From positions 1-34,637 of the forward strand of contig WJMF01000115.1 of the NCBI GenBank assembly GCA_014728085.1: 34,637 nucleotides of DNA. Reading direction: 5' to 3'. Of the stretch, positions 5,610 through 33,595 are shown in pieces. Under the pieces are notes generated by a model that did no database searches, was not told the origin of the DNA, and saw nothing but the letters and a program-made list of their open reading frames with translations. The translations under genes and the position numbers were made by a program. The stretch's first letter is position 1. Each line of letters opens with the position of its first letter. The DNA is from Candidatus Zhuqueibacterota bacterium (lineage in GTDB: Bacteria; Zhuqueibacterota; Zhuqueibacteria; Residuimicrobiales; Oceaniaggregativiventaceae).

Positions 5610-6521
5610 ATGCAGTGCCAACATAAAAACATTTATATCGGTCCTGCCGGCTGGTCCTATACCGACTGGCAGGGCGTTGTCTATCCGCCAAAGACTCCGC
5701 CTTCTTTTTATGCTCTCGATTACCTGATGCAATTTTTCAACACCATTGAAATCAATTCGACTTTTTACCGGATCCCCAATCCGGCATCGGTGATCAAATG
5801 GACCAAAACCGCTGAACAACAGAATGATTTTCTTTTTTCCGTCAAACTCTGGCAGAAATTCACCCACGAACGCGTTTTGGATAACAGCAGCATCACCGCT
5901 TTTAAAAAGGCGCTACTACCCATGCTGGAGGGGCAACGACTCGGAGTGTTGCTGGCACAATTTCCCTGGAGTTTTAAATTCAGCGATGCAAGCATGGTCT
6001 ATTTACAAAAGCTTGCCGGTCAGTTTACAGCCTTTCCTCTGGCCATCGAATTCCGGCATCAGAACTGGCAAAACGAGCGGGTTTTTGATTTTTTTAAAGA
6101 GCATGGCATTGCTTTTGTCAATATTGATCAGCCGCGGCTCAATGCCTGCCTGCCGCCTACGGAACGGGTGACGTCGGATATTGGTTATATCCGCCTTCAC
6201 GGCCGCAATCAGCAGCACTGGTTCAATGAAAAATCCGGACGCAACGATCGCTATAACTATTTATACAGCCAGGAGGAATTGGCACCCTGGCAGCAACATC
6301 TCGATAGAATTGCGGCAGCGGCACAGCGGACATTTGTCATATTCAATAACCATTTCCGCGGCCAGGCGGTCGTCAACGCCTTTGAATTTCAATACATGCT
6401 GGAACAAAAACCACTCGATATTCCCGCGCATCTGTTGCAGCATTTTCCCCACCTTGAACAGATCCACTCCGGCGATGACGGAAATGATCCGCCGCGTCAG
6501 AGATCACTGGATCTTTTTTGA
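5610..6521 (+). CDS. DUF72 (YecE-family) TIM-barrel protein
   Basis: The protein has 303 residues. Family hallmarks are near the start, IYIGPAGWSYTDWQGVVYPP, then FFNTIEINSTFYRIP and FLFSVKLWQKFTH, and late YIRLHGRN and FVIFNNHFRGQAVVNA. DUF72 proteins adopt a TIM-barrel fold of unknown biochemical function and are sometimes found near Fe-S or nucleic-acid metabolism genes. The ATG follows the preceding TAA with no gap (TAAATG), indicating translational coupling to the barrel gene, although the two products have no evident functional link. Confidence 0.9.
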   Translation: MQCQHKNIYIGPAGWSYTDWQGVVYPPKTPPSFYALDYLMQFFNTIEINSTFYRIPNPASVIKWTKTAEQQNDFLFSVKLWQKFTHERVLDNSSITAFKKALLPMLEGQRLGVLLAQFPWSFKFSDASMVYLQKLAGQFTAFPLAIEFRHQNWQNERVFDFFKEHGIAFVNIDQPRLNACLPPTERVTSDIGYIRLHGRNQQHWFNEKSGRNDRYNYLYSQEELAPWQQHLDRIAAAAQRTFVIFNNHFRGQAVVNAFEFQYMLEQKPLDIPAHLLQHFPHLEQIHSGDDGNDPPRQRSLDLF

Positions 6522-6566
6522 AACTTTTTGGTGTTTATAGCATCTAATAAATAAACAGGAGGATAC

Positions 6567-6728
6567 ATGGATATCATCGGATTGATTTTGATTTTTGTAG
6601 CCTGGTTTGTGGTTGCAAAATATATTTTGCCCAAACTGGGAATCCCGACTTGAATGTCCGGGTCTTGTGATCTTCCGGGTGAAGATCCTTTCAAATACAA
6701 AGCAAAAAAGGAAGAGGAGTCTGAGTAA
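6567..6728 (+). CDS. Candidate small membrane selenoprotein (in-frame TGA at 6651 read as Sec)
   Basis: A strong Shine-Dalgarno (AGGAGG, 6557-6562) precedes ATG 6567. The first 28 residues are one transmembrane helix (MDIIGLILIFVAWFVVAKYI) ending LPKLGIPT, then TGA at 6651. The same frame continues for 24 sense codons (MSGSCDLPGEDPFKYKAK, then an acidic end) to TAA at 6726, which overlaps the ATG of the next gene (TAATG). A perfect 7-bp hairpin with a G-rich loop (6669-6687) lies at SECIS distance. If Sec is inserted the product has 53 residues with a U-x4-C redox pair (U29, C34) just outside the membrane. The alternative is a 28-residue membrane peptide and a separate ORF starting ATG at 6654, but the latter has no ribosome-binding site. 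No homologue could be checked. Confidence 0.62.
6669..6687 (+). promoter_or_regulatory. SECIS-like hairpin downstream of the in-frame TGA
   Basis: GATCTTC (6669-6675) pairs perfectly with GAAGATC (6681-6687) around the loop CGGGT (6676-6680). The loop begins 23 nt after the TGA, within the range for bacterial SECIS elements, and contains guanines and GT as SelB-binding loops do. It lies inside the coding frame, as required in bacteria. Confidence 0.55.
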
Positions 6729-6931
6729 TGCCTATTTATGAATATAAATGCAACGAATGCGGTCATACATTTGAGGCTTTTCAGCGTCTGGGTTCTGACG
6801 GCAGCGAGCTGAAATGTCCGAAATGCGGCACAGCAAAACCGCAAAAGCTTTTTTCTGCGTTTGCCTCATCCGGTGGTGGAGGCGGATACCCGGGTGGTGG
6901 CGGTGCCTGCGGTCCCGCTGGCTTTACCTGA
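6728..6931 (+). CDS. FmdB-family zinc ribbon protein
   Basis: The protein has 67 residues. The N-terminus MPIYEYKCNECGHTFEAFQ and the second knuckle LKCPKCG form the four-cysteine zinc ribbon of the FmdB regulatory family. A glycine-rich tail ends ACGPAGFT, common in these proteins. The family name comes from a putative regulator of formamidase, and the general function is unknown. The ATG overlaps the TAA of the candidate selenoprotein, with GGAAGAGGAG (6709-6718) as ribosome-binding site inside that frame. This supports the upstream extension being translated and the two genes being coupled. Confidence 0.92.
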   Translation: MPIYEYKCNECGHTFEAFQRLGSDGSELKCPKCGTAKPQKLFSAFASSGGGGGYPGGGGACGPAGFT

Positions 6932-7166: not shown

Positions 7167-7355
7167 ATGAAAAAGCTATCTATAAAAAATCTTGCCGGAC
7201 TGGCAGTCGGGGCAGCGCTGGGATACGCCTATTACCGTTTTATCGGCTGTAACAGCGGTCACTGTCCACTAACCAGTAATCCGGCCATCAGCACCTTTTA
7301 TGGTGCCATGATCGGTTTTCTATTTGTTTTTAAACCGAAACCAAAGAAACAGTAA
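7167..7355 (+). CDS. DUF6132 small membrane protein
   Basis: The ATG at 7167 gives 62 residues; the upstream TTG at 7134 in the same frame is unlikely because it would use promoter sequence. Two hydrophobic helices (about 8-23 and 41-56) flank the motif GCNSGHCPLTSNP, the conserved two-cysteine segment of DUF6132, followed by STFYGAMIGFLF. The function is unknown. In other genomes the family tends to sit near redox or sulfur-handling genes (general recollection, not checked), and here its neighbour is a multiheme cytochrome. A weak GGA precedes the start. Confidence 0.8.
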   Translation: MKKLSIKNLAGLAVGAALGYAYYRFIGCNSGHCPLTSNPAISTFYGAMIGFLFVFKPKPKKQ

Positions 7356-7464: not shown

Positions 7465-8577
7465 ATGCAGCGATGGTTTTTTTATTTAATTCTATATTTC
7501 TCCTTTCCTCTTTTCGCACAACCACTGGAAGAATCCCAAACCTGCAGGGAATGCCACCCAAATGCATATGCGGAATGGCAATCTTCCCGACATGCCAAAT
7601 CAGATCATCTCCTTGTTTATGGTCAGCTTTTAATTCAGAACAACAAGGAAAATTGTTATCCCTGTCATCAACCCGTCTATGCACTGGATCTTGATGAATA
7701 TGTCGAATCCAGTATAAACGAGACCTCCGTAAACTGCGATTTTTGCCATGCCGTTCGCATCGAACCCAAAGAACAGACCTATCGACTGGTTGCAGACAAC
7801 GTCAAATTCGGACCGATCAAAGACGCCATCGCCTATGCGCATCAATGCGACTATAAAGAACTTTACACCACGGCTGAATTTTGCATGACCTGTCACGATT
7901 ATAATCATTTGCCGCTAAAGCAGCATTTCTCCTCGGTCTATGATGAATGGAAAGAGAGCCGTTTTTATGAACAGGGCGTTGTTTGCCAGGACTGCCACAT
8001 GCCTGCCCGGGTAGGCAAGGCAGCCACTCTGGGCAAAATACGCGATACCATCCATTCACATCATTTTTACAACGGTGAATCCGAGGAATTTTTACATCAA
8101 TGCGCCGAGCTGCAGCTTACTGCCGTGCGCGCCGGGGAGAATATCAATATTGAACTCCTGATCACAAACCGGTCCGTCGGCCACAAGCTGCCGTCAGGCT
8201 CGCCGCTGCGAATGGTCATTTTGCAGGTCGAGGTTCAAAACGAACAGCTGCAGCCGCTGTGGAGAAACTGGTACAAGGATCCCCTTGCTGAAGATGACAA
8301 CGCGGTTTTCGGCAAACGCTTTTATTCTGCAGACAACAGGTTGGTTTTACCCTGGGAAGAGAGCGACCGGGTCATCGATAAACGCCTGATTCCGGACAGC
8401 ACCGTTACGCTGAACTATTTTATACAGGACTCTACCGCCTCATGGATAGAGGCCAAATTACTCTATCACATCCTGCCACCACCGTATGAAAACAGAATCA
8501 TCACCGGCCGCAGCACCGATTATCCGCCTCGCCAGATCAATGTCGTTAAGGAAAAAATCGAAGTGATTGCAGAATAG
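7465..8577 (+). CDS. Secreted pentaheme c-type cytochrome
   Basis: The start is ATG 7465, with CGGAGGT just upstream, giving 370 residues. A signal peptide (about 1-19, ending LFAQ) is followed by five CxxCH heme sites beginning at residues 27 (CRECH), 64 (CYPCH), 91 (CDFCH), 140 (CMTCH) and 174 (CQDCH). Additional histidines (SSRHAKSDH, HSHH) could be distal ligands. This is the arrangement of the cytochrome c554/NrfB-like multiheme family. The C-terminal half (from about 200) lacks hemes and looks like a beta-rich domain (NRSVGHKLPSGSPLRM). It is probably a periplasmic or surface electron-transfer protein. The partner is unknown. Confidence 0.88.
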   Translation: MQRWFFYLILYFSFPLFAQPLEESQTCRECHPNAYAEWQSSRHAKSDHLLVYGQLLIQNNKENCYPCHQPVYALDLDEYVESSINETSVNCDFCHAVRIEPKEQTYRLVADNVKFGPIKDAIAYAHQCDYKELYTTAEFCMTCHDYNHLPLKQHFSSVYDEWKESRFYEQGVVCQDCHMPARVGKAATLGKIRDTIHSHHFYNGESEEFLHQCAELQLTAVRAGENINIELLITNRSVGHKLPSGSPLRMVILQVEVQNEQLQPLWRNWYKDPLAEDDNAVFGKRFYSADNRLVLPWEESDRVIDKRLIPDSTVTLNYFIQDSTASWIEAKLLYHILPPPYENRIITGRSTDYPPRQINVVKEKIEVIAE

Positions 8578-26309: not shown

Positions 26310-28148
26310 CTATTGGTATAGAGGACCATACGTTTTACAGGCACGATAATCTGCGCCTTCGAGGTCGTGGGTACCAAAAGCACTCCACGCCTTGGGTCTG
26401 AAGATGCGCTCGTCTGCTATGTTGTGCATTGCAACCGGAATTCGCAACATTGATGCGAGCGTGATCAATGAATGTCCGATATGACCATAGGAAATAGAAC
26501 CGTGATTGGCACCCCAATTGTTCATCACCGAATAGACATCGCGAAAAGCGCCTTTTCCGGTGGTTAGCGGTACGAACCAGGTCGTCGGCCAGGTCGGATC
26601 GGTGCGTTCATTGAGCACGGGATGTATTTTCTTATCCAGGGTAACCGTGTGTCCTTCGGCGATTTGCAAAACAGGCCCGAGGCCTTTTACCAGATTTATC
26701 CGGCTCATGGTAACCGGCATATTGCCGACGGTCAGGAACTGGGAAGAAAAACCACCACCGCGAAAGTAGCCCAAATTTGCCGGACACCAGCGCGTCGCCT
26801 CAAGACATTTTTCCGCCTCAGACGCCTGGATCTGCCAGAACGGTTTCATCGCCGGCTTGCCGTTGTCTTGCATCTGTCCGGTCCCATCCAGGGTTGCCGA
26901 ACCCGAATTGATCAGATGAATAATACCATTTTCAGCAATACCGCTCAGGGTTTCACCGGTGACGCGTTTGACCGCATCGGGACTCCAATACGTTCTGACG
27001 TCGGCAAATATTTGTGCTCTGTCCGTAATCAGGTGGCCGAACAGCATGGCTGCACCGTTCAATGCATCATTTTCGGTGGCCATGACATATGGTTGCCTGA
27101 TACCGTTCCAGTCAAAGGAAGAATTGAGAATGGCTTCCATAAAATCGCCATTGGGAAAATGATCCGTCCATTGCCGCTGACCCTGAAATCCGGCTGCCAG
27201 GGCATTGTGTCCCAGCGCCTCCTCGGCATAGCCAATATGGTCCATAGCGGGATTTCCCACCATCAGATCACGGGCAATCAGCGTCATTTTTACGACGGTT
27301 TGCCAGTCCCGGTCCTTTTGCTGACGCGATCGCTGCTTTTCAGTCGGATTCGGGTCTATTCCCTCCTTACAGTAGCGCTTTATCCATTCCATAGCGCGAT
27401 CATATTCCTGTTTGTCGAATATTTCATTATTGATGCGGCGGACGAATTCACTCATGTCAACATATTCACAGCGCATACCGAGAAATTCTTCAAAAAACAA
27501 GGGGTCTACCATTGAACCGGCAATTCCCATCGATACTGAGCCGAGGGACAAATAGGATTTTCCTCGCATTTCAGCAACCGCAAGACCGCTCTTGACAAAT
27601 TGCAATATTTTTTCCCTGACATCAGCGGGAATCGTGGTGTCACCCGCATCCTGCACATCTCGACCATAGATCCCAAATGCGGGTAGTCCTTTTTGGTCAT
27701 GCGCGGCCAAAACCGCTGCAAGATAGACCGCTCCCGGACGTTCCGTACCGTTAAATCCCCAGATTGCTTTGGGAATATAAGGATCCATATCCATGGTTTC
27801 AGAGCCGTAACACCAGCTGGGTGTTACGGTTAAAGAGACGCCGACACCTTGTCGTTCAAATTTATCCTGTGCCTGAGCAGCTTCAGCCACACCGCCAATA
27901 CAGGAATCGGCGATAACGCATTCTACCGGTAAACCATTTGAGTGATGTAAATTCTTGCTGATCAGCTCACCTACAGCTTTGGCCAGATTCATGGTGATAT
28001 CTTCAAGAGATTCACGTACACCTTTTCTTCTGCCATCGATGGTGGGCCTGATGCCGACTTTGGGCATGGAGCCATTTAAACGCTGATGAGGTTGGTTTAC
28101 GGGAAAATCTAAATTTGTTACGTTTGATTCTTTGGCTGAATTCTTCAT
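26310..28148 (-). CDS. fucI: L-fucose isomerase
   Basis: The protein has 612 residues. It contains the family opening [38 protein letters not shown] and [21 protein letters not shown], and ends in a C-terminal half with [20 protein letters not shown] and [16 protein letters not shown]. It is a Mn2+-dependent ketol isomerase converting L-fucose to L-fuculose and sometimes D-arabinose to D-ribulose. Compared with typical FucI (about 590) it has some 25 extra N-terminal residues. No clear ribosome-binding site precedes ATG 28148, so the real start could be Met28. It lies 26 bp after ackA, and the presence of fucU makes fucose the probable substrate. Confidence 0.93.
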
Positions 28149-28174
28149 CGTATTTTCATTCTTTTGTTAAAAAT

Positions 28175-29362
28175 CTAATTATTTATCACTTTAAACGTTT
28201 CCTGAGCAACCACCCATTCTTCATTAGTATCTAGTATCAAAGCTCTTACATTTGAAGTATTACTTGAAATGATTTGAGCATGTTCTTTGTTCTTTTGCTG
28301 ATTTATTTCAAGGCCAAGAAAATGCAATGAGGACAAAACGCGCTGTCGCAGATCGGCGTCTTGTTGCCCGATACCGCCGGTAAAGGTAATTGCATCGACA
28401 CCCTCCATAAGAACGATATATTCACCAATGTATCGTTTAATGTCATAGATAAATTTATCGCGTGCCAGTTTTGCCCGCTTGTCTCCGGCTTTTTCTGCTT
28501 TGCGGATATCTCGCATATCGCCGCTGGTACCGGACAATCCGGCCAGACCGGCATTTTGGGAACATTCTTTCAGAGCGGTATCCAGATCAATGCCCTTCCG
28601 TTCCATAATATAGGGTAAAACGTATGGATCCATATCACCAATGCGCGTGCTTTGTAGCAGACCGGATTGAGGCGTAAAGCCCATTGAGGTATCTATCGAG
28701 CGACCGTTTTTAAAGGCACACAGAGAAGATGAACCACCCAGGTGACAGGTAATGATTTTATGATCATCCTCGTTGAGACCGAGGATGCGAACCGTCTCCC
28801 AGGTAACAAAACGGTGCGAGGCGCCGTGATAGCCGTATTTTTTAACACCATAGGTTTCATACCATTCGTACGGTGTACCGTAAACTTTGGCATATTCCGG
28901 TGCGTCGACGTGAAAGCCGGGTTCAAAAACACCGACCAAAGGGGTATTCGGCAAAAGTTCGCGAAACATATAGATCGCAGTCAGATACGGCGGATTGTGA
29001 GCCGGAGCCAGAGCCTTATAGTCCTCCATAGCGTTCAGGACATCCTGTGTCAAAAGAACGGAACCGTTCTTATCCCCGGCCTGTATCGTTTTAAAACCGA
29101 CTGCATCGATGGCTTTGAGATCCGGCAAGATGGAAAATTCAGCATCAACGAGAAAATCCAGAGCATGCTCCACCGCCTCGCGATGTGACGGTATACGTGT
29201 ATGTTCCTGCAGCAGCTCTTCACCCTCTTTCCAGTATGTGACGGCCGCATTTTCCGATCCTACCCTGTCCGTATGGCCTTTGGCGAGTACCTTTTGCGAA
29301 TCCATCTCGATCAATTGAAACTTGAGACTTGTGGATCCGATGTTGCAAACCATAATTTGCAT
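28175..29362 (-). CDS. Divergent acetate-kinase-family enzyme of the fucose microcompartment
   Basis: The protein has 395 residues, usual length. The ASKHA fold is intact, with VCNIGSTSLKFQLIEM, His122 in LAPAHNP, His179 in YGYHGASH, CHLGG, Arg240 in STRIGDMDP, FTGGIG and DTNEEWVVAQET. Residues conserved in bona fide AckA are changed. Arg91 is Lys and the HRVVHGG motif reads FKTIQAG; catalytic Asp148 is Glu147 in VFEPGFH; Asn211 is Gly210; and GIGEN is GIGQQ. It therefore belongs to a divergent clade, and its acyl substrate may be larger than acetate (propionate or lactate are possible), with ATP made from an acyl-phosphate. It sits in the operon between the BMC hexamer gene and fucI. Confidence 0.8.
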   Translation of the reverse strand: MQIMVCNIGSTSLKFQLIEMDSQKVLAKGHTDRVGSENAAVTYWKEGEELLQEHTRIPSHREAVEHALDFLVDAEFSILPDLKAIDAVGFKTIQAGDKNGSVLLTQDVLNAMEDYKALAPAHNPPYLTAIYMFRELLPNTPLVGVFEPGFHVDAPEYAKVYGTPYEWYETYGVKKYGYHGASHRFVTWETVRILGLNEDDHKIITCHLGGSSSLCAFKNGRSIDTSMGFTPQSGLLQSTRIGDMDPYVLPYIMERKGIDLDTALKECSQNAGLAGLSGTSGDMRDIRKAEKAGDKRAKLARDKFIYDIKRYIGEYIVLMEGVDAITFTGGIGQQDADLRQRVLSSLHFLGLEINQQKNKEHAQIISSNTSNVRALILDTNEEWVVAQETFKVINN

Positions 29363-29412
29363 ACGAATAACCTGTCTAATGTTTTACTTGAGGTGATTCT
29401 TTTAACATTAAT

Positions 29413-29437
29413 TATAACAATTTGATTGATTGTTATA
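29413..29437 (-). promoter_or_regulatory. Intercistronic hairpin between shell gene and kinase gene
   Basis: A perfect 9-bp inverted repeat (TATAACAAT 29413-29421, ATTGTTATA 29429-29437) surrounds a 7-nt loop. It is AT-only except for one pair and has no T tract, so it is not a standard terminator. It may stabilise or process the message downstream of the shell gene, which is needed in excess. Confidence 0.5.
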
Positions 29438-29459
29438 GTACTATTGAATCAACCTGTTA

Positions 29460-29735
29460 TTATCGCTTTGGCAGGATGAGCTCAACATCATCGTGAGGTC
29501 TGGCAATAACGTGCACGGAAATTAATTCTCCTACTTTTTCAGCAGCCGCGGCGCCGGCATCGGTAGCAGCTTTAACGGCACCGACATCACCTCTTACCAT
29601 AACCGTTACAAAACCACCGCCAATTTGTATTTTACCGATCAGTTCGACCTGTGCCGCTTTGACCATTGCATCCGCTGCTTCGAGCGAGGGTACGAATCCG
29701 CGGGTTTCAATCAGACCAATTGCTTGTAGTGCCAT
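29460..29735 (-). CDS. BMC-H microcompartment shell protein (PduA/EutM/CcmK type)
   Basis: The protein has 91 residues, one BMC domain (Pfam BMC fold). It starts [24 protein letters not shown], given here as the family opening, with [21 protein letters not shown] and ending [18 protein letters not shown]. Such proteins form hexamers tiling the shell facets, with a central pore. The typical pore-region segment is [29 protein letters not shown] lies at ribosome-binding distance upstream. It is the only single-domain shell protein in the window. Confidence 0.96.
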
Positions 29736-29776
29736 TGTTTGTTCTCCTTTGGGTTTACTGTATATGCATTGACGAT

Positions 29777-31195
29777 TTAAACAATTTGCAGGGATTTATA
29801 AATCGATAATCTTCTGACCCGGGCGAAATTCCTCGGTGTACAAATACCTTCTCCGGTTGGACTGGAGATGGTATGGGAAAAATAGCCTTCCCCTGCACGC
29901 GGGCCATTTCCGGCCAGGCTGGGACCGTTAACGACAACAATATCGGTATCGATCGCTTTTGTAAAGCGGGTGATGGTCTCCAGATGGTTGGAATAGATTA
30001 CCGCGGTATGGCCGAACTTGTGTTCCGCTTTTACGGCCAATCGTATACCTTCCTTCCGGTCGCTGACCTTTACCACAGGCAGAAAGGGCATCATTTGCTC
30101 TTCCTGCACAAAGAGATGGCCGAATTCCGTCTCTCCGAACAGAACGCGAACATCATCAGAGAGGTCGAGTCCGGCTGCGCGCCCCAGAACATTTGCATTT
30201 TTGCCGATATAGTGACGGCTGGGATAAAAATGACCATCCTTGCCTTTTTCGAATGCTTTTTCCGTCAGCATCTCGATCTGCCGGCGGTTCAACCTCACGG
30301 CACCAACCCGGCTCATGGCATTCATAAACGCATCAAAAACAGAGGCGACAACAAAGATCTCCTTTTCAGCGATACAGAGAATATTATTATCAAAAGCTGC
30401 GCCTTCGATGATATGGTTGGCTGCGAGATTCAAATCAGCGGTATCATCAATAAAGACCGGCGGATTACCCGGTCCGGCGGCAATCACCTTTTTCCCGGCA
30501 TCGAATGCGGCTTTGACCACGGCCGGTCCGCCGGTGGCGGCGATAATAGGAATATTCGGGTGTGTCATCAGGGTATTGAGGCTTTGCAGAGTCGGTTCCC
30601 GCACCATGGTGATCAAGTCGGCTGGTCCGCCGTTGTTTTGAATGGTTTTATTAAAAATTTCCAAAGCAAATGCAGAAACCTTTTTGGCGGCAGGATGAAC
30701 ATTGAACACAACCGAATTTCCGGAGGCGATCATGATCACGGTGCTGTTAAAAAGCACCGGAATCGGATGGGTGGACGGTGTGATGCCGGCAATAACACCG
30801 TAAGGGGCATAATCCTCCACCACGAGTCCCTTATCGCCGCTCCAGGAACGCGTTTCCAGGTCTTCCATGCCGGGGGTAGCGTCTGCGGCGTTGTGATGTT
30901 TGATGATTTTACACTCGACACGTCCCATCCCGGTTTCCTCATGCGCCCGGTGGGCGAACGCTTCGGCATGCTCGTGCATGGTTTCGCGTAAAGCACAAAT
31001 CACCTTTTCACGCGTCTCTTTCAGGGTATTGTGCCAGATTTTTTGCGCTTCTTTGGCCGCGAAGATGGCTTTTTCTATATCATCATATACACCGGTGCTG
31101 GTACCGATGCTCTGTGCGGAAACAGACTGTTTATTCAATTCTTCAATAACTTTACGGGCGATTTCTTTGACGAGTTGCCGGTCGATATCAGACAT
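29777..31195 (-). CDS. pduP: CoA-acylating aldehyde dehydrogenase, microcompartment type (PduP/EutE-like)
   Basis: The protein has 472 residues. Residues 1-20 ([20 protein letters not shown]) form an amphipathic helix followed by a flexible Ser/Gly/Thr linker, the classic encapsulation peptide that targets enzymes to BMC lumens. The ALDH core follows, with [19 protein letters not shown] and the catalytic cysteine C274 in [11 protein letters not shown]. It oxidises an aldehyde to acyl-CoA with NAD+. In PDU the substrate is propionaldehyde and in EUT acetaldehyde; here, from the fucose context, lactaldehyde or propionaldehyde is likely. It lies 9 bp after the tandem-BMC gene. Confidence 0.93.
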
Positions 31196-31204
31196 TGCAA
31201 GGTC

Positions 31205-31756
31205 CTATAAATATTCTTTAAACAGTTCTTCGCTCGGCGCCGGGATCACCACTTTGTTGACCAGGAGTCCTTTTTCAGAAACAACAGCAGCACCAGATTC
31301 GACAGCAGCAGTAACAGCGGAAACATCTCCGGTAAGCGTGACAAATGCTTTGCCGCCCAATGCCATCGCCAGCCGGATTTCAACGATTTCGACGCTGGCA
31401 GCCTTGGCGGCAGCGTCAGCCGCTTCCAGCAGAGAGGCCACGGAAAATGATTCGATAATGCCGAGAGCACCCTTGTTTTTCACCACATTGGCTCCGCTGA
31501 TCGCCGGAAAAATAGAGTTGTGAACATTGGCAATGACGAGAGAATCGATGATGGATGATTGCGATTGCATTGCATTCAATCCTGCATCCACGCTGGACTG
31601 GACGCTATCGACCCCGCCGCCGATGATAACCATATATTTACCGGAACAGATCGATCGCGACACCAATAGCTCTACATCAGCGGTCTTTAACAGGACATCG
31701 GTAACCTGAATTCCGGATGCAATACTGTTCAGTTCGATTAATCCTATTGCATTCAT
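31205..31756 (-). CDS. pduT: Tandem-domain BMC-T shell protein (PduT-like)
   Basis: The protein has 183 residues with two BMC domains (about 1-88 and 95-178). The second reads ALGIIESFSVASLLEAADAA, with EIRLAMALGGKAFVTLTGDV. Cys37 in SRSICSGKYM corresponds to the pore cysteine (Cys38) of PduT, which in PduT trimers ligates a [4Fe-4S] cluster at the three-fold pore. Its gene follows the PduS-like gene with the ATG adjacent to that gene's stop. This fits an electron relay across the shell, with PduS reducing cofactors inside. Confidence 0.92.
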   Translation of the reverse strand: MNAIGLIELNSIASGIQVTDVLLKTADVELLVSRSICSGKYMVIIGGGVDSVQSSVDAGLNAMQSQSSIIDSLVIANVHNSIFPAISGANVVKNKGALGIIESFSVASLLEAADAAAKAASVEIVEIRLAMALGGKAFVTLTGDVSAVTAAVESGAAVVSEKGLLVNKVVIPAPSEELFKEYL

Positions 31757-33082
31757 TTAAATCCTCTCAATGGTTATGCCTTCAGGTGTAACCCTGGTGA
31801 CGTGGCCTGAAATGCTGGCGTGATATGCAGCACTTAACGGAGTGTCCGGTACCGCCTCGGCGATGAGCCGGCCTTTTTCGACGGTTTGTTTTTCCTGCAC
31901 CACGGGACGGGCGGGAACGCCGATATGCTGATCGAGCAATATACGAACATATGGAGGTTCATAAGCGGTTTCTTTATAATGCGCCCCGGCTTCATACGGC
32001 GTCAGGCCGAGCTTGTTATTCAACAGCTTCATAGGAACGCGCCGTTCATTTTTCATCGGATGCGCTTTGACCTCTGTGGGTCCCTCCCATTTGGTAACAC
32101 CGATCTCTTTTAGATTGTCAATGCTCTGCACGCAGGCTTCCCGCGGATAGAGGTCTTCCGGACAGGCATAGAGCGTACAGATACCGCATTGACAGCAGAG
32201 CTGGGCATAACGGTTCCACATCTCTTTGGAAGTAAGGGTAAATCCCAGACTTCGCATCACCTTGTGTGGCTGGATATCATAGCCGAGCAGATAGCGGGGA
32301 CAGAGTTCGGTACAATAGCTGCACTGATCGCAGGCAGAGTGGCCGATCTTGTTCATCTGACTTTTGGTCATGGAATAGCGCTGTATCAGTCGGTGTTCTT
32401 TGGGCAACACAATAAGGCCGCCGGTGGTTTTGCCGATCGGCTGGTCCAGGTCTTTAATCAGCTTGCCCATTAAAATACCGCTGTTCATGACAGCAAAGTC
32501 GTCGATAAGGCTCCCTCCTGCCACCTCGAGGGCGTGACGAACGCTTGTGCCGATGGGCAAAAAGAGGGTGACGGGTTGTTTGACTTTGCCGGTAATGGTC
32601 AAAAAGGTATTGATTACCGGTTTGTTTTGATGCGCCTGATAAATATTATAAAAGGTTTCGACATTATTGACAATGGAATCGACCTGAAGCGGAATACCGC
32701 CGGCGGGCACGAGCTTGCCGGTGATTTCATAGACCAGTTCGTATTCATCGCCGGCGGGATAAAAATCGCCGAATTCCCTGATTTTCAAATCGATATTCTT
32801 TGCAGCGTCTCGAATGGCCTGAATGGCGCCTGAATTCTTTGATTTGATACCGATCCAAAGCTCTTTGGCCGCCACCGGAGCGGCTGCGAGGGCAATGCCA
32901 TTAACGATTTCCGGGGCAAAGTTAACCATCAGCTCCCTGTCTTTGTGCATCAGCGGTTCGCATTCGGCACCGTTGGCCAACAACCAGCGCGTTTGCGATT
33001 TATATTTAACATGGGTCGGAAATCCGGCCCCACCGGCACCGATAACGCCGGCATTTTTAATTTTTTCAACAATATCAGGCAT
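31757..33082 (-). CDS. pduS: PduS-like RnfC-family Fe-S flavoprotein
   Basis: The protein has 441 residues. The NADH/FMN-binding glycine-rich start is GAGGAGFPTHVKYKSQTRW, followed by LLANGAECEPLMHKDRELM (family motif). A SLBB-type segment is next, and then two [4Fe-4S] motifs, CDQCSYCTELCPRYLLGYD and CCQCGICTLYACPEDLYPRE. The C-terminal domain is barrel-sandwich-like (residues about 395-441, ISGHVTRVTPEGITIERI). PduS is a cobalamin reductase in the B12-dependent propanediol BMC, but no B12 enzyme is seen here, so a general NADH-recycling or electron-export role is possible. It is directly followed by the PduT-like shell gene. Confidence 0.93.
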   Translation of the reverse strand: MPDIVEKIKNAGVIGAGGAGFPTHVKYKSQTRWLLANGAECEPLMHKDRELMVNFAPEIVNGIALAAAPVAAKELWIGIKSKNSGAIQAIRDAAKNIDLKIREFGDFYPAGDEYELVYEITGKLVPAGGIPLQVDSIVNNVETFYNIYQAHQNKPVINTFLTITGKVKQPVTLFLPIGTSVRHALEVAGGSLIDDFAVMNSGILMGKLIKDLDQPIGKTTGGLIVLPKEHRLIQRYSMTKSQMNKIGHSACDQCSYCTELCPRYLLGYDIQPHKVMRSLGFTLTSKEMWNRYAQLCCQCGICTLYACPEDLYPREACVQSIDNLKEIGVTKWEGPTEVKAHPMKNERRVPMKLLNNKLGLTPYEAGAHYKETAYEPPYVRILLDQHIGVPARPVVQEKQTVEKGRLIAEAVPDTPLSAAYHASISGHVTRVTPEGITIERI

Positions 33083-33151
33083 GTTTAATATTCGTTAAAG
33101 GTTCAAAAGATCAATCATCATTATATAAAAAATCCAAATCAAAATCAATAA

Positions 33152-33595
33152 TTATGTCGCGTTTTCAAGCGGTACAACGCCTTTTTTGACAATAATATTG
33201 CCATATTTGGCCGTTTCTCCGGTCATGACAATGGCAAAAGCTGATTTGGAGCGTTCGTAAAATGCAAATCTGTCGATATGTTCCGGCGCAGCGGTTTTCG
33301 GCCAGTGACGGTCGATAACCTCCCGATAGCGTTTTAGCACCGACGCATCCAGTGTATCGCCTTTAACTGCCTGCATCATGGTCACAGGATGGGTAACATA
33401 GGTATCCGGAACAAACAGCGGCAATACCGCATCAAGCAAATCAGCGATTTTCAGACCATCGGCGCGGACGAGGCGATGGGCCAGCGATTCTCCGGGGAAA
33501 TGGGCATCAGCAAAGACGATCTCGTCGCCGTGCCCCATGCGGTATAGAATACTGAGCAACTCCGGACTTAAAAGCGGTGAAATTCCGACAAGCAC
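33152..33595 (-). CDS. fucU: L-fucose mutarotase, RbsD/FucU family
   Basis: The protein has 147 residues. It starts at GTG (33595) with GGGAGGT at the correct distance upstream. Motifs are ILYRMGHGDEIVFADAHFPGE, here the catalytic His/Asp region, and the C-terminal RFAFYERSKSAFAIVMTGET with YGNIIVKKGV. FucU interconverts the alpha and beta anomers of L-fucose so that FucI can use them. It is the first gene of the microcompartment operon, 69 bp before pduS, and its sequence supports fucose as the pathway substrate. Confidence 0.92.
   Translation of the reverse strand: MLVGISPLLSPELLSILYRMGHGDEIVFADAHFPGESLAHRLVRADGLKIADLLDAVLPLFVPDTYVTHPVTMMQAVKGDTLDASVLKRYREVIDRHWPKTAAPEHIDRFAFYERSKSAFAIVMTGETAKYGNIIVKKGVVPLENAT

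Follow-up and report, generated by a model that had tools for sequence, protein, structure and literature searches.

The window, as the whole 34,637-nucleotide stretch analyzed here is called, contains a small gene on the plus strand (positions 6567 to 6728, including the TAA stop codon) with a TGA codon inside its reading frame. The frame opens with an ATG at 6567, which is preceded at a distance of 4 nt by the Shine-Dalgarno sequence AGGAGG (6557 to 6562, plus strand), and runs for 28 codons to the TGA at 6651 to 6653, after which 24 sense codons lead to TAA at 6726 to 6728. Translated with TGA as selenocysteine (Sec), the product is MDIIGLILIFVAWFVVAKYILPKLGIPT-U-MSGSCDLPGEDPFKYKAKKEEESE-stop, a protein of 53 residues comprising 52 standard amino acids and Sec29. 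A membrane helix is predicted for residues 3 to 23 (6573 to 6635), where the AlphaFold2 model has a pLDDT of about 87 and the aligned relatives are hydrophobic. The downstream half carries a cysteine, Cys34 (codon at 6666 to 6668), which would form a U-x4-C motif with Sec29. The same half contains the hairpin GAUCUUC-CGGGU-GAAGAUC (6669 to 6687, plus strand), whose first base is the 16th beyond the TGA and which has 7 base pairs and the loop CGGGU at 6676 to 6680.

The last A of the TAA stop (6728) is also the first base of the ATG of the next gene, which encodes an FmdB-family zinc-ribbon protein (6728 to 6931, plus strand; TIGR02605 and PF09723). On the same strand follow genes for a DUF6132 small membrane protein (7167 to 7355; PF19628) containing the motif GC-x-[ST]-G-x-C-P-[IL]-T and for a multiheme c-type cytochrome with five CXXCH motifs (7465 to 8577; PF13435 and others), and the upstream neighbor encodes a DUF72 protein (5610 to 6521, plus strand; PF01904). 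The 28-residue open reading frame with its strong ribosome-binding site, the 24-codon continuation that overlaps the next start codon, the hairpin, and the DUF6132, cytochrome, and DUF72 neighbors all lie where a preliminary description of this DNA had placed them. Elsewhere in the window, a run of minus-strand open reading frames (26310 to 33595), judged from translations only, resembles a microcompartment sugar degradation cluster, with an isomerase, acetate kinase, shell-like proteins, aldehyde dehydrogenase, and a PduS-like protein.

Reading of the TGA codon

An initial search found matches at an E value of 0.1 or better in 65 of 147 sampled genomes, most of them with exactly one in-frame TGA, and a profile built from 30 members (A1) together with a broader profile (A3) gave matches in 85 of 388 genomes. 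From the stretches retrieved, 92 family members were extracted (the window counted in), mostly 43 to 72 residues in length, in which the codon aligned with the TGA is TGA in 83, Cys in 7, TAA in 1, and Arg in 1. The Sec forms span several phyla and come from about 42 genome families, 15 of them in the phylum of the window and 27 outside it (labeled "same domain"). Contigs of named genomes were scanned with a pattern that specified Cys at the Sec position, which yielded Cys forms and one chance match that was dropped (L054). The six named Cys forms are in metagenome-assembled genomes of a Deltaproteobacterium, a Chloroflexi, a Cyanobacteriota, a Planctomycetales bacterium, and two Kuenenia. A weak, nonhomologous match (L118, in genome G041) was also dropped, a search of plasmids for the family returned no matches, and phylum-wide searches around two distant genomes covered 1 and 5 genomes.

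Several members are unusual at or around the Sec site. L103 (G040:C54) has TAA in place of TGA, keeps the frame and the downstream Cys (GIPT*MNPDACRVPP), and lies in a genome with matches to tRNA-Sec and selA; it may represent a recent loss or an error of assembly. L154 (G335:C168), with Arg at the site (GISTRMSDGCK*), is likely to be decaying or to contain a sequencing error. The open frame of L150 (G361:C118) continues for about 90 residues beyond Sec, a possible C-terminal fusion, and L116 (G002:C25) combines in one short gene a TGA for Sec with a TGA TGA double terminator, which makes it a natural internal control for the specificity of recoding. In L161 and L163 there is no Cys after Sec, and the gene sits directly 3' of rpoA-rplQ-like and tpiA-secG-like genes, respectively, as judged by inspection of translations.

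The machinery for Sec insertion is present in the genome from which the window comes. The preliminary description took the absence of selB or selC as an argument against its reading; selA (563 bits), selB (352 bits), and tRNA-Sec (68.5 bits) were all found, each above the curated cutoff. Across the 147-genome sample, selA was found in 56 of the 59 genomes with a TGA form (Fisher P = 5e-12 for co-occurrence, a value to be read with the relatedness of the genomes in mind, since the counts are not independent). The other three genomes (G035, G049, and G057) have tRNA-Sec matches above the cutoff, which the tRNA-Sec model also exceeds in some control genomes. A selA match is absent from four of the six named genomes with Cys forms. 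Two Cys forms in genomes with selA (L049 and L050) retain a SECIS-like hairpin, which suggests a recent change from Sec to Cys.

The simplest competing account is that the TGA is an ordinary stop, so that the locus would encode a 28-residue membrane peptide followed either by a second small open reading frame starting at the next ATG or by a noncoding spacer before the FmdB gene. An ATG does lie immediately 3' of the TGA in the window. Among the 83 Sec forms, however, the residue after Sec is M in 54, L in 11, A in 10, I in 3, V in 2, and T, G, or S in 1 each; a second start therefore cannot be general, because 18 of the 83 have neither M nor L at this position. In addition, a Cys codon takes the place of the TGA in seven relatives, which read as one protein, and the extension beyond the equivalent of residue 28 is kept among the homologs, which do not uniformly end there. 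Amino acid changes in the downstream stretch are constrained as well: for 11 close pairs taken together, pN/pS is 0.44 downstream of the TGA versus 0.21 upstream of it, indicating that the stretch after the TGA is under constraint, though less so than the helix.

Hairpin downstream of the TGA

Bacterial SECIS (bSECIS) elements have been modeled as hairpins with a loop of 3 to 9 nt, a stem of 4 to 16 bp, a G in the first two loop positions, a distance of 16 to 37 nt from the TGA to the loop, and a minimum free energy at or below -7.5 kcal/mol (PMC13188914). The window fits this geometry with its 5-nt loop CGGGU, 7 bp, and distance of 22 nt; the hairpin alone has an energy of -6.4 kcal/mol and the region from the TGA to +54 has one of -8.4 kcal/mol, so that the energy limit is reached by the region only. 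A hairpin of bSECIS geometry was found in 81 of the 83 Sec forms, with the loop starting 17 to 31 nt after the TGA, mostly at 22 to 23 nt, within the published range of 16 to 37 nt.

A single hairpin of this strength is common, a point in favor of the TGA being an ordinary stop, and the fold of the window region is by itself unremarkable (z = -0.51; equaled or bettered by 50 of 200 shuffles). The hairpin in the window accordingly stands out from chance only through its relatives. In the 48 members that align in register without gaps, six column pairs (20 to 25 with 31 to 36, counting the T of TGA as 1) are paired in 93.1% of cells, and sliding the stem by 1 to 3 columns lowers the pairing to 37 to 54%. 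The covariation score of these members is 0.672, compared with 0.267 +/- 0.021 after shuffling, and cells with changes on both sides of a pair number 67, compared with 18.7 after shuffling, with double changes in all six pairs. Of the members with a stem outside this register, most form a shifted one.

Because the hairpin lies inside codons, the energy control was made by redrawing synonymous codons: 77% of Sec forms, compared with 13% of the redraws, contain a hairpin of bSECIS geometry at -5 kcal/mol or lower. The folding energy of the whole region is weak evidence for a SECIS element (mean z of -0.84 for 58 Sec forms against synonymous redraws), and the argument therefore relies on covariation and on the positioned hairpins. 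The RNA hairpin appears in turn to influence which residues follow Sec in the protein.

Together, the Cys forms, the variable residue after the TGA, and the covariation led us to reject the reading of the locus as two genes separated by a stop codon, which we consider highly improbable. The conserved anatomy of the locus argues instead that it almost certainly encodes a genuine selenoprotein, in which SelB with Sec-tRNA would read the TGA as Sec by means of the hairpin, with its loop some 17 to 24 nt farther downstream. The selenoprotein proposed in the preliminary description is thus strongly supported computationally by the Sec machinery, the conserved TGA, the Cys forms, and the covarying hairpin.

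Predicted membrane layout, gene neighborhoods, and possible function

The AlphaFold2 model consists of one helix (residues 3 to 23) followed by a low-confidence tail. Of the 27 residues read upstream of Sec, the N-terminal six include a mean of 0.94 acidic and 0.06 basic residues; for the 12 residues before Sec, the means are 1.63 basic and 0.01 acidic. By the positive-inside rule, this charge pattern and the model would place the N terminus outside and Sec with its tail on the cytoplasmic side. The helix would then anchor the protein and hold the conserved motif LPxxG[VI]PT-U a few residues from the cytoplasmic face of the membrane, with a short charged tail following on the same side. The term "envelope selenoprotein" used in the preliminary description suits this layout if the inner membrane is meant, but the charge pattern points to a cytoplasmic location for Sec itself.

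Within the motif preceding Sec, position -1 is T in 81 and position -4 is G in 82 of the 83 Sec forms, and none of the 83 has a Cys in the 27 residues upstream of Sec. A Cys at +5 is present in 64 of 83, and 79 of 83 have a Cys somewhere downstream, leaving four without any. Sec is thus the constant element of these sequences, and the second Cys, though usual, can be dispensed with. The pairing of U29 with C34 that had been put forward for the window is in keeping with a spacing common in the family, but it is not universal and, because of the four Sec forms without a downstream Cys, cannot be essential everywhere.

The U-x4-C spacing equals the C-x4-C spacing of PrxQ, and one explanation that was weighed is a peroxidase-like activity in which Sec attacks peroxide, the +5 Cys resolves as in PrxQ/BCP, and thioredoxin is the reductant. 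Three members have a weak PrxQ match (best E value, 0.021), and rubrerythrin and OsmC genes adjoin two members. A single helix with a low-confidence tail, however, offers no fold for a peroxide pocket, and four members lack a downstream Cys; we regard such an activity as rather unlikely.

The neighborhoods of the 92 loci provide indications of function, the usual companion being a gene for a zinc-ribbon protein or for thioredoxin-type redox proteins. In 44 of the 92 loci an FmdB match lies less than 1 kb away, and in no locus is there a match beyond 1 kb only, even though the outer flank searched was 2.6 times larger; the FmdB gene is nearly always just downstream of the selenoprotein gene on the same strand. 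Matches to the DUF6132 pattern lie near the selenoprotein gene in 24 loci. The links to FmdB and DUF6132 drawn in the preliminary description are thereby borne out. Its link to the cytochrome, which adjoins the gene cluster in the window and has homologs in a cluster of 14 loci, stands as a local one; a DUF72 pattern match was found upstream in 14 other loci, and the heme protein and DUF72 are conserved in a subset of loci only. Genes for thioredoxin-fold proteins, detected with three home-made profiles, also cluster within 1 kb, with a thioredoxin-profile match only beyond 1 kb in a single locus. These association counts are not independent trials, as the genomes are related and proximity was the reason for choosing some of the seeds for the neighbor profiles.

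The sets of neighbors vary between lineages and include thioredoxin, a DsbD_TM-thioredoxin protein, a rhodanese with a metallo-beta-lactamase fold, YgaP-like transmembrane proteins, OsmC, rubrerythrin, a pyridine nucleotide-disulfide oxidoreductase, and ArsR. Among the Cys forms, one (L048) lies in a row of genes for thioredoxin, DUF6132, the Cys form, and a DsbD_TM-thioredoxin protein, and others adjoin a rhodanese-YgaP protein and a metallo-beta-lactamase-rhodanese protein. Handling of persulfides or disulfides at the membrane would best fit these Cys-form neighborhoods, a possible but doubtful assignment.

The frequency of FmdB leaves room for a different view, namely, that Sec is real but serves in binding or transport of metals or metalloids (Hg, As, Zn, or Se) with FmdB and ArsR-type partners rather than in thiol redox chemistry. 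Selenols bind soft metals strongly, the FmdB zinc ribbon is the commonest partner, and ArsR-family regulators are found within 1 kb in six loci. On the other hand, the ArsR family also includes sensors of thiols and persulfides, thioredoxin-fold partners are more frequent, and no metal pump, reductase, or metallochaperone recurs in the conserved neighbor clusters and neighbor tables examined. A metal-related role is therefore considered unlikely. An accessory or scaffold subunit of an unrecognized membrane complex, in which Sec would serve as a ligand or form a cross-link and not act catalytically, would agree with the adjacency of DUF6132 and YgaP-like transmembrane proteins in many loci, and proteins of a single short helix frequently act as subunits. 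Proteins seldom retain Sec for a structural role, however, and no single partner is common to all lineages, which makes this explanation quite improbable.

The overall explanation that we prefer, at a probability of roughly three in four, is a widespread family of tiny single-helix membrane selenoproteins in which a tethered selenol works with thioredoxin-like partners. As a best guess, function is read here from gene neighbors, by guilt by association. The selenol would act as a membrane-tethered nucleophile that passes electrons or sulfane sulfur to or from a thioredoxin-fold partner, and in most members the Cys five residues on would resolve Sec as a selenenylsulfide. The neighbors and the motif modestly favor this exchange with a thioredoxin-fold partner and the resolving role of the +5 Cys in most members. 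More tentatively, the family may form a selenol relay at the membrane surface with FmdB, DUF6132- and YgaP-type proteins, and thioredoxins, a redox or sulfane sulfur module that would be new to description.

Comparison with known systems

The family is absent from the catalogs searched. Scanning 30 members against Pfam and NCBIfam gave no match above the curated cutoffs, the best matches being weak and scattered, and comparison of the family profile with sequences of solved structures gave no meaningful match. None of the 119 families in a review of bacterial selenoproteins from May 2026 fits by name, domain, or motif entry (PMC13188914), and a text search of papers for the motif returned unrelated words only. 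There is a small chance that the family has already been described in papers outside the literature searched. Standard gene calling would break the gene into a 28-residue open reading frame, which may explain its absence from Pfam, NCBIfam, and the May 2026 inventory. The family is small in size and has kept Sec in most of the relatives found. If confirmed, it would extend the known bacterial uses of selenium by a selenoprotein that lacks an evident enzyme fold, provide a testable redox context for FmdB and DUF6132, both of unknown function, and imply that further short selenoproteins of the membrane still await discovery.

DUF6132 (PF19628), on which a literature search returned no paper and one unrelated text match, resembles the selenoprotein in being a small membrane protein, often in the same cluster, and the spacing of its C-x-[ST]-G-x-C motif equals that of U-x-S-G-x-C. 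It differs in having two hydrophobic stretches that flank the motif, as judged by inspection, and Cys rather than Sec; the likeness is one of spacing. PrxQ/BCP peroxiredoxins have two cysteines spaced C-x4-C and so share the spacing of the redox pair, but the selenoprotein, according to the AlphaFold2 model, has no peroxiredoxin fold. In eukaryotes, SELENOK and SELENOS are small selenoproteins that cross the membrane once and carry Sec in a short disordered tail. They differ in that Sec adjoins the C terminus and that the SECIS element of eukaryotes lies in the 3' untranslated region; the resemblance to the bacterial family would be one of layout alone.

Like the selenoproteins with bSECIS elements, the family combines a TGA and a downstream hairpin of the published geometry within the coding sequence with Sec machinery and Cys homologs, whereas its U-x4-C and LPxxG[VI]PT-U motifs and single-helix architecture occur in none of the 119 families by their listed descriptions (PMC13188914). 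An FmdB-family selenoprotein from the GOS survey, in which Sec lies inside FmdB itself in a CxxU motif (PMC2398784), likewise involves both FmdB and selenium, but in the present family FmdB is encoded by a separate neighboring gene and has ordinary cysteines.
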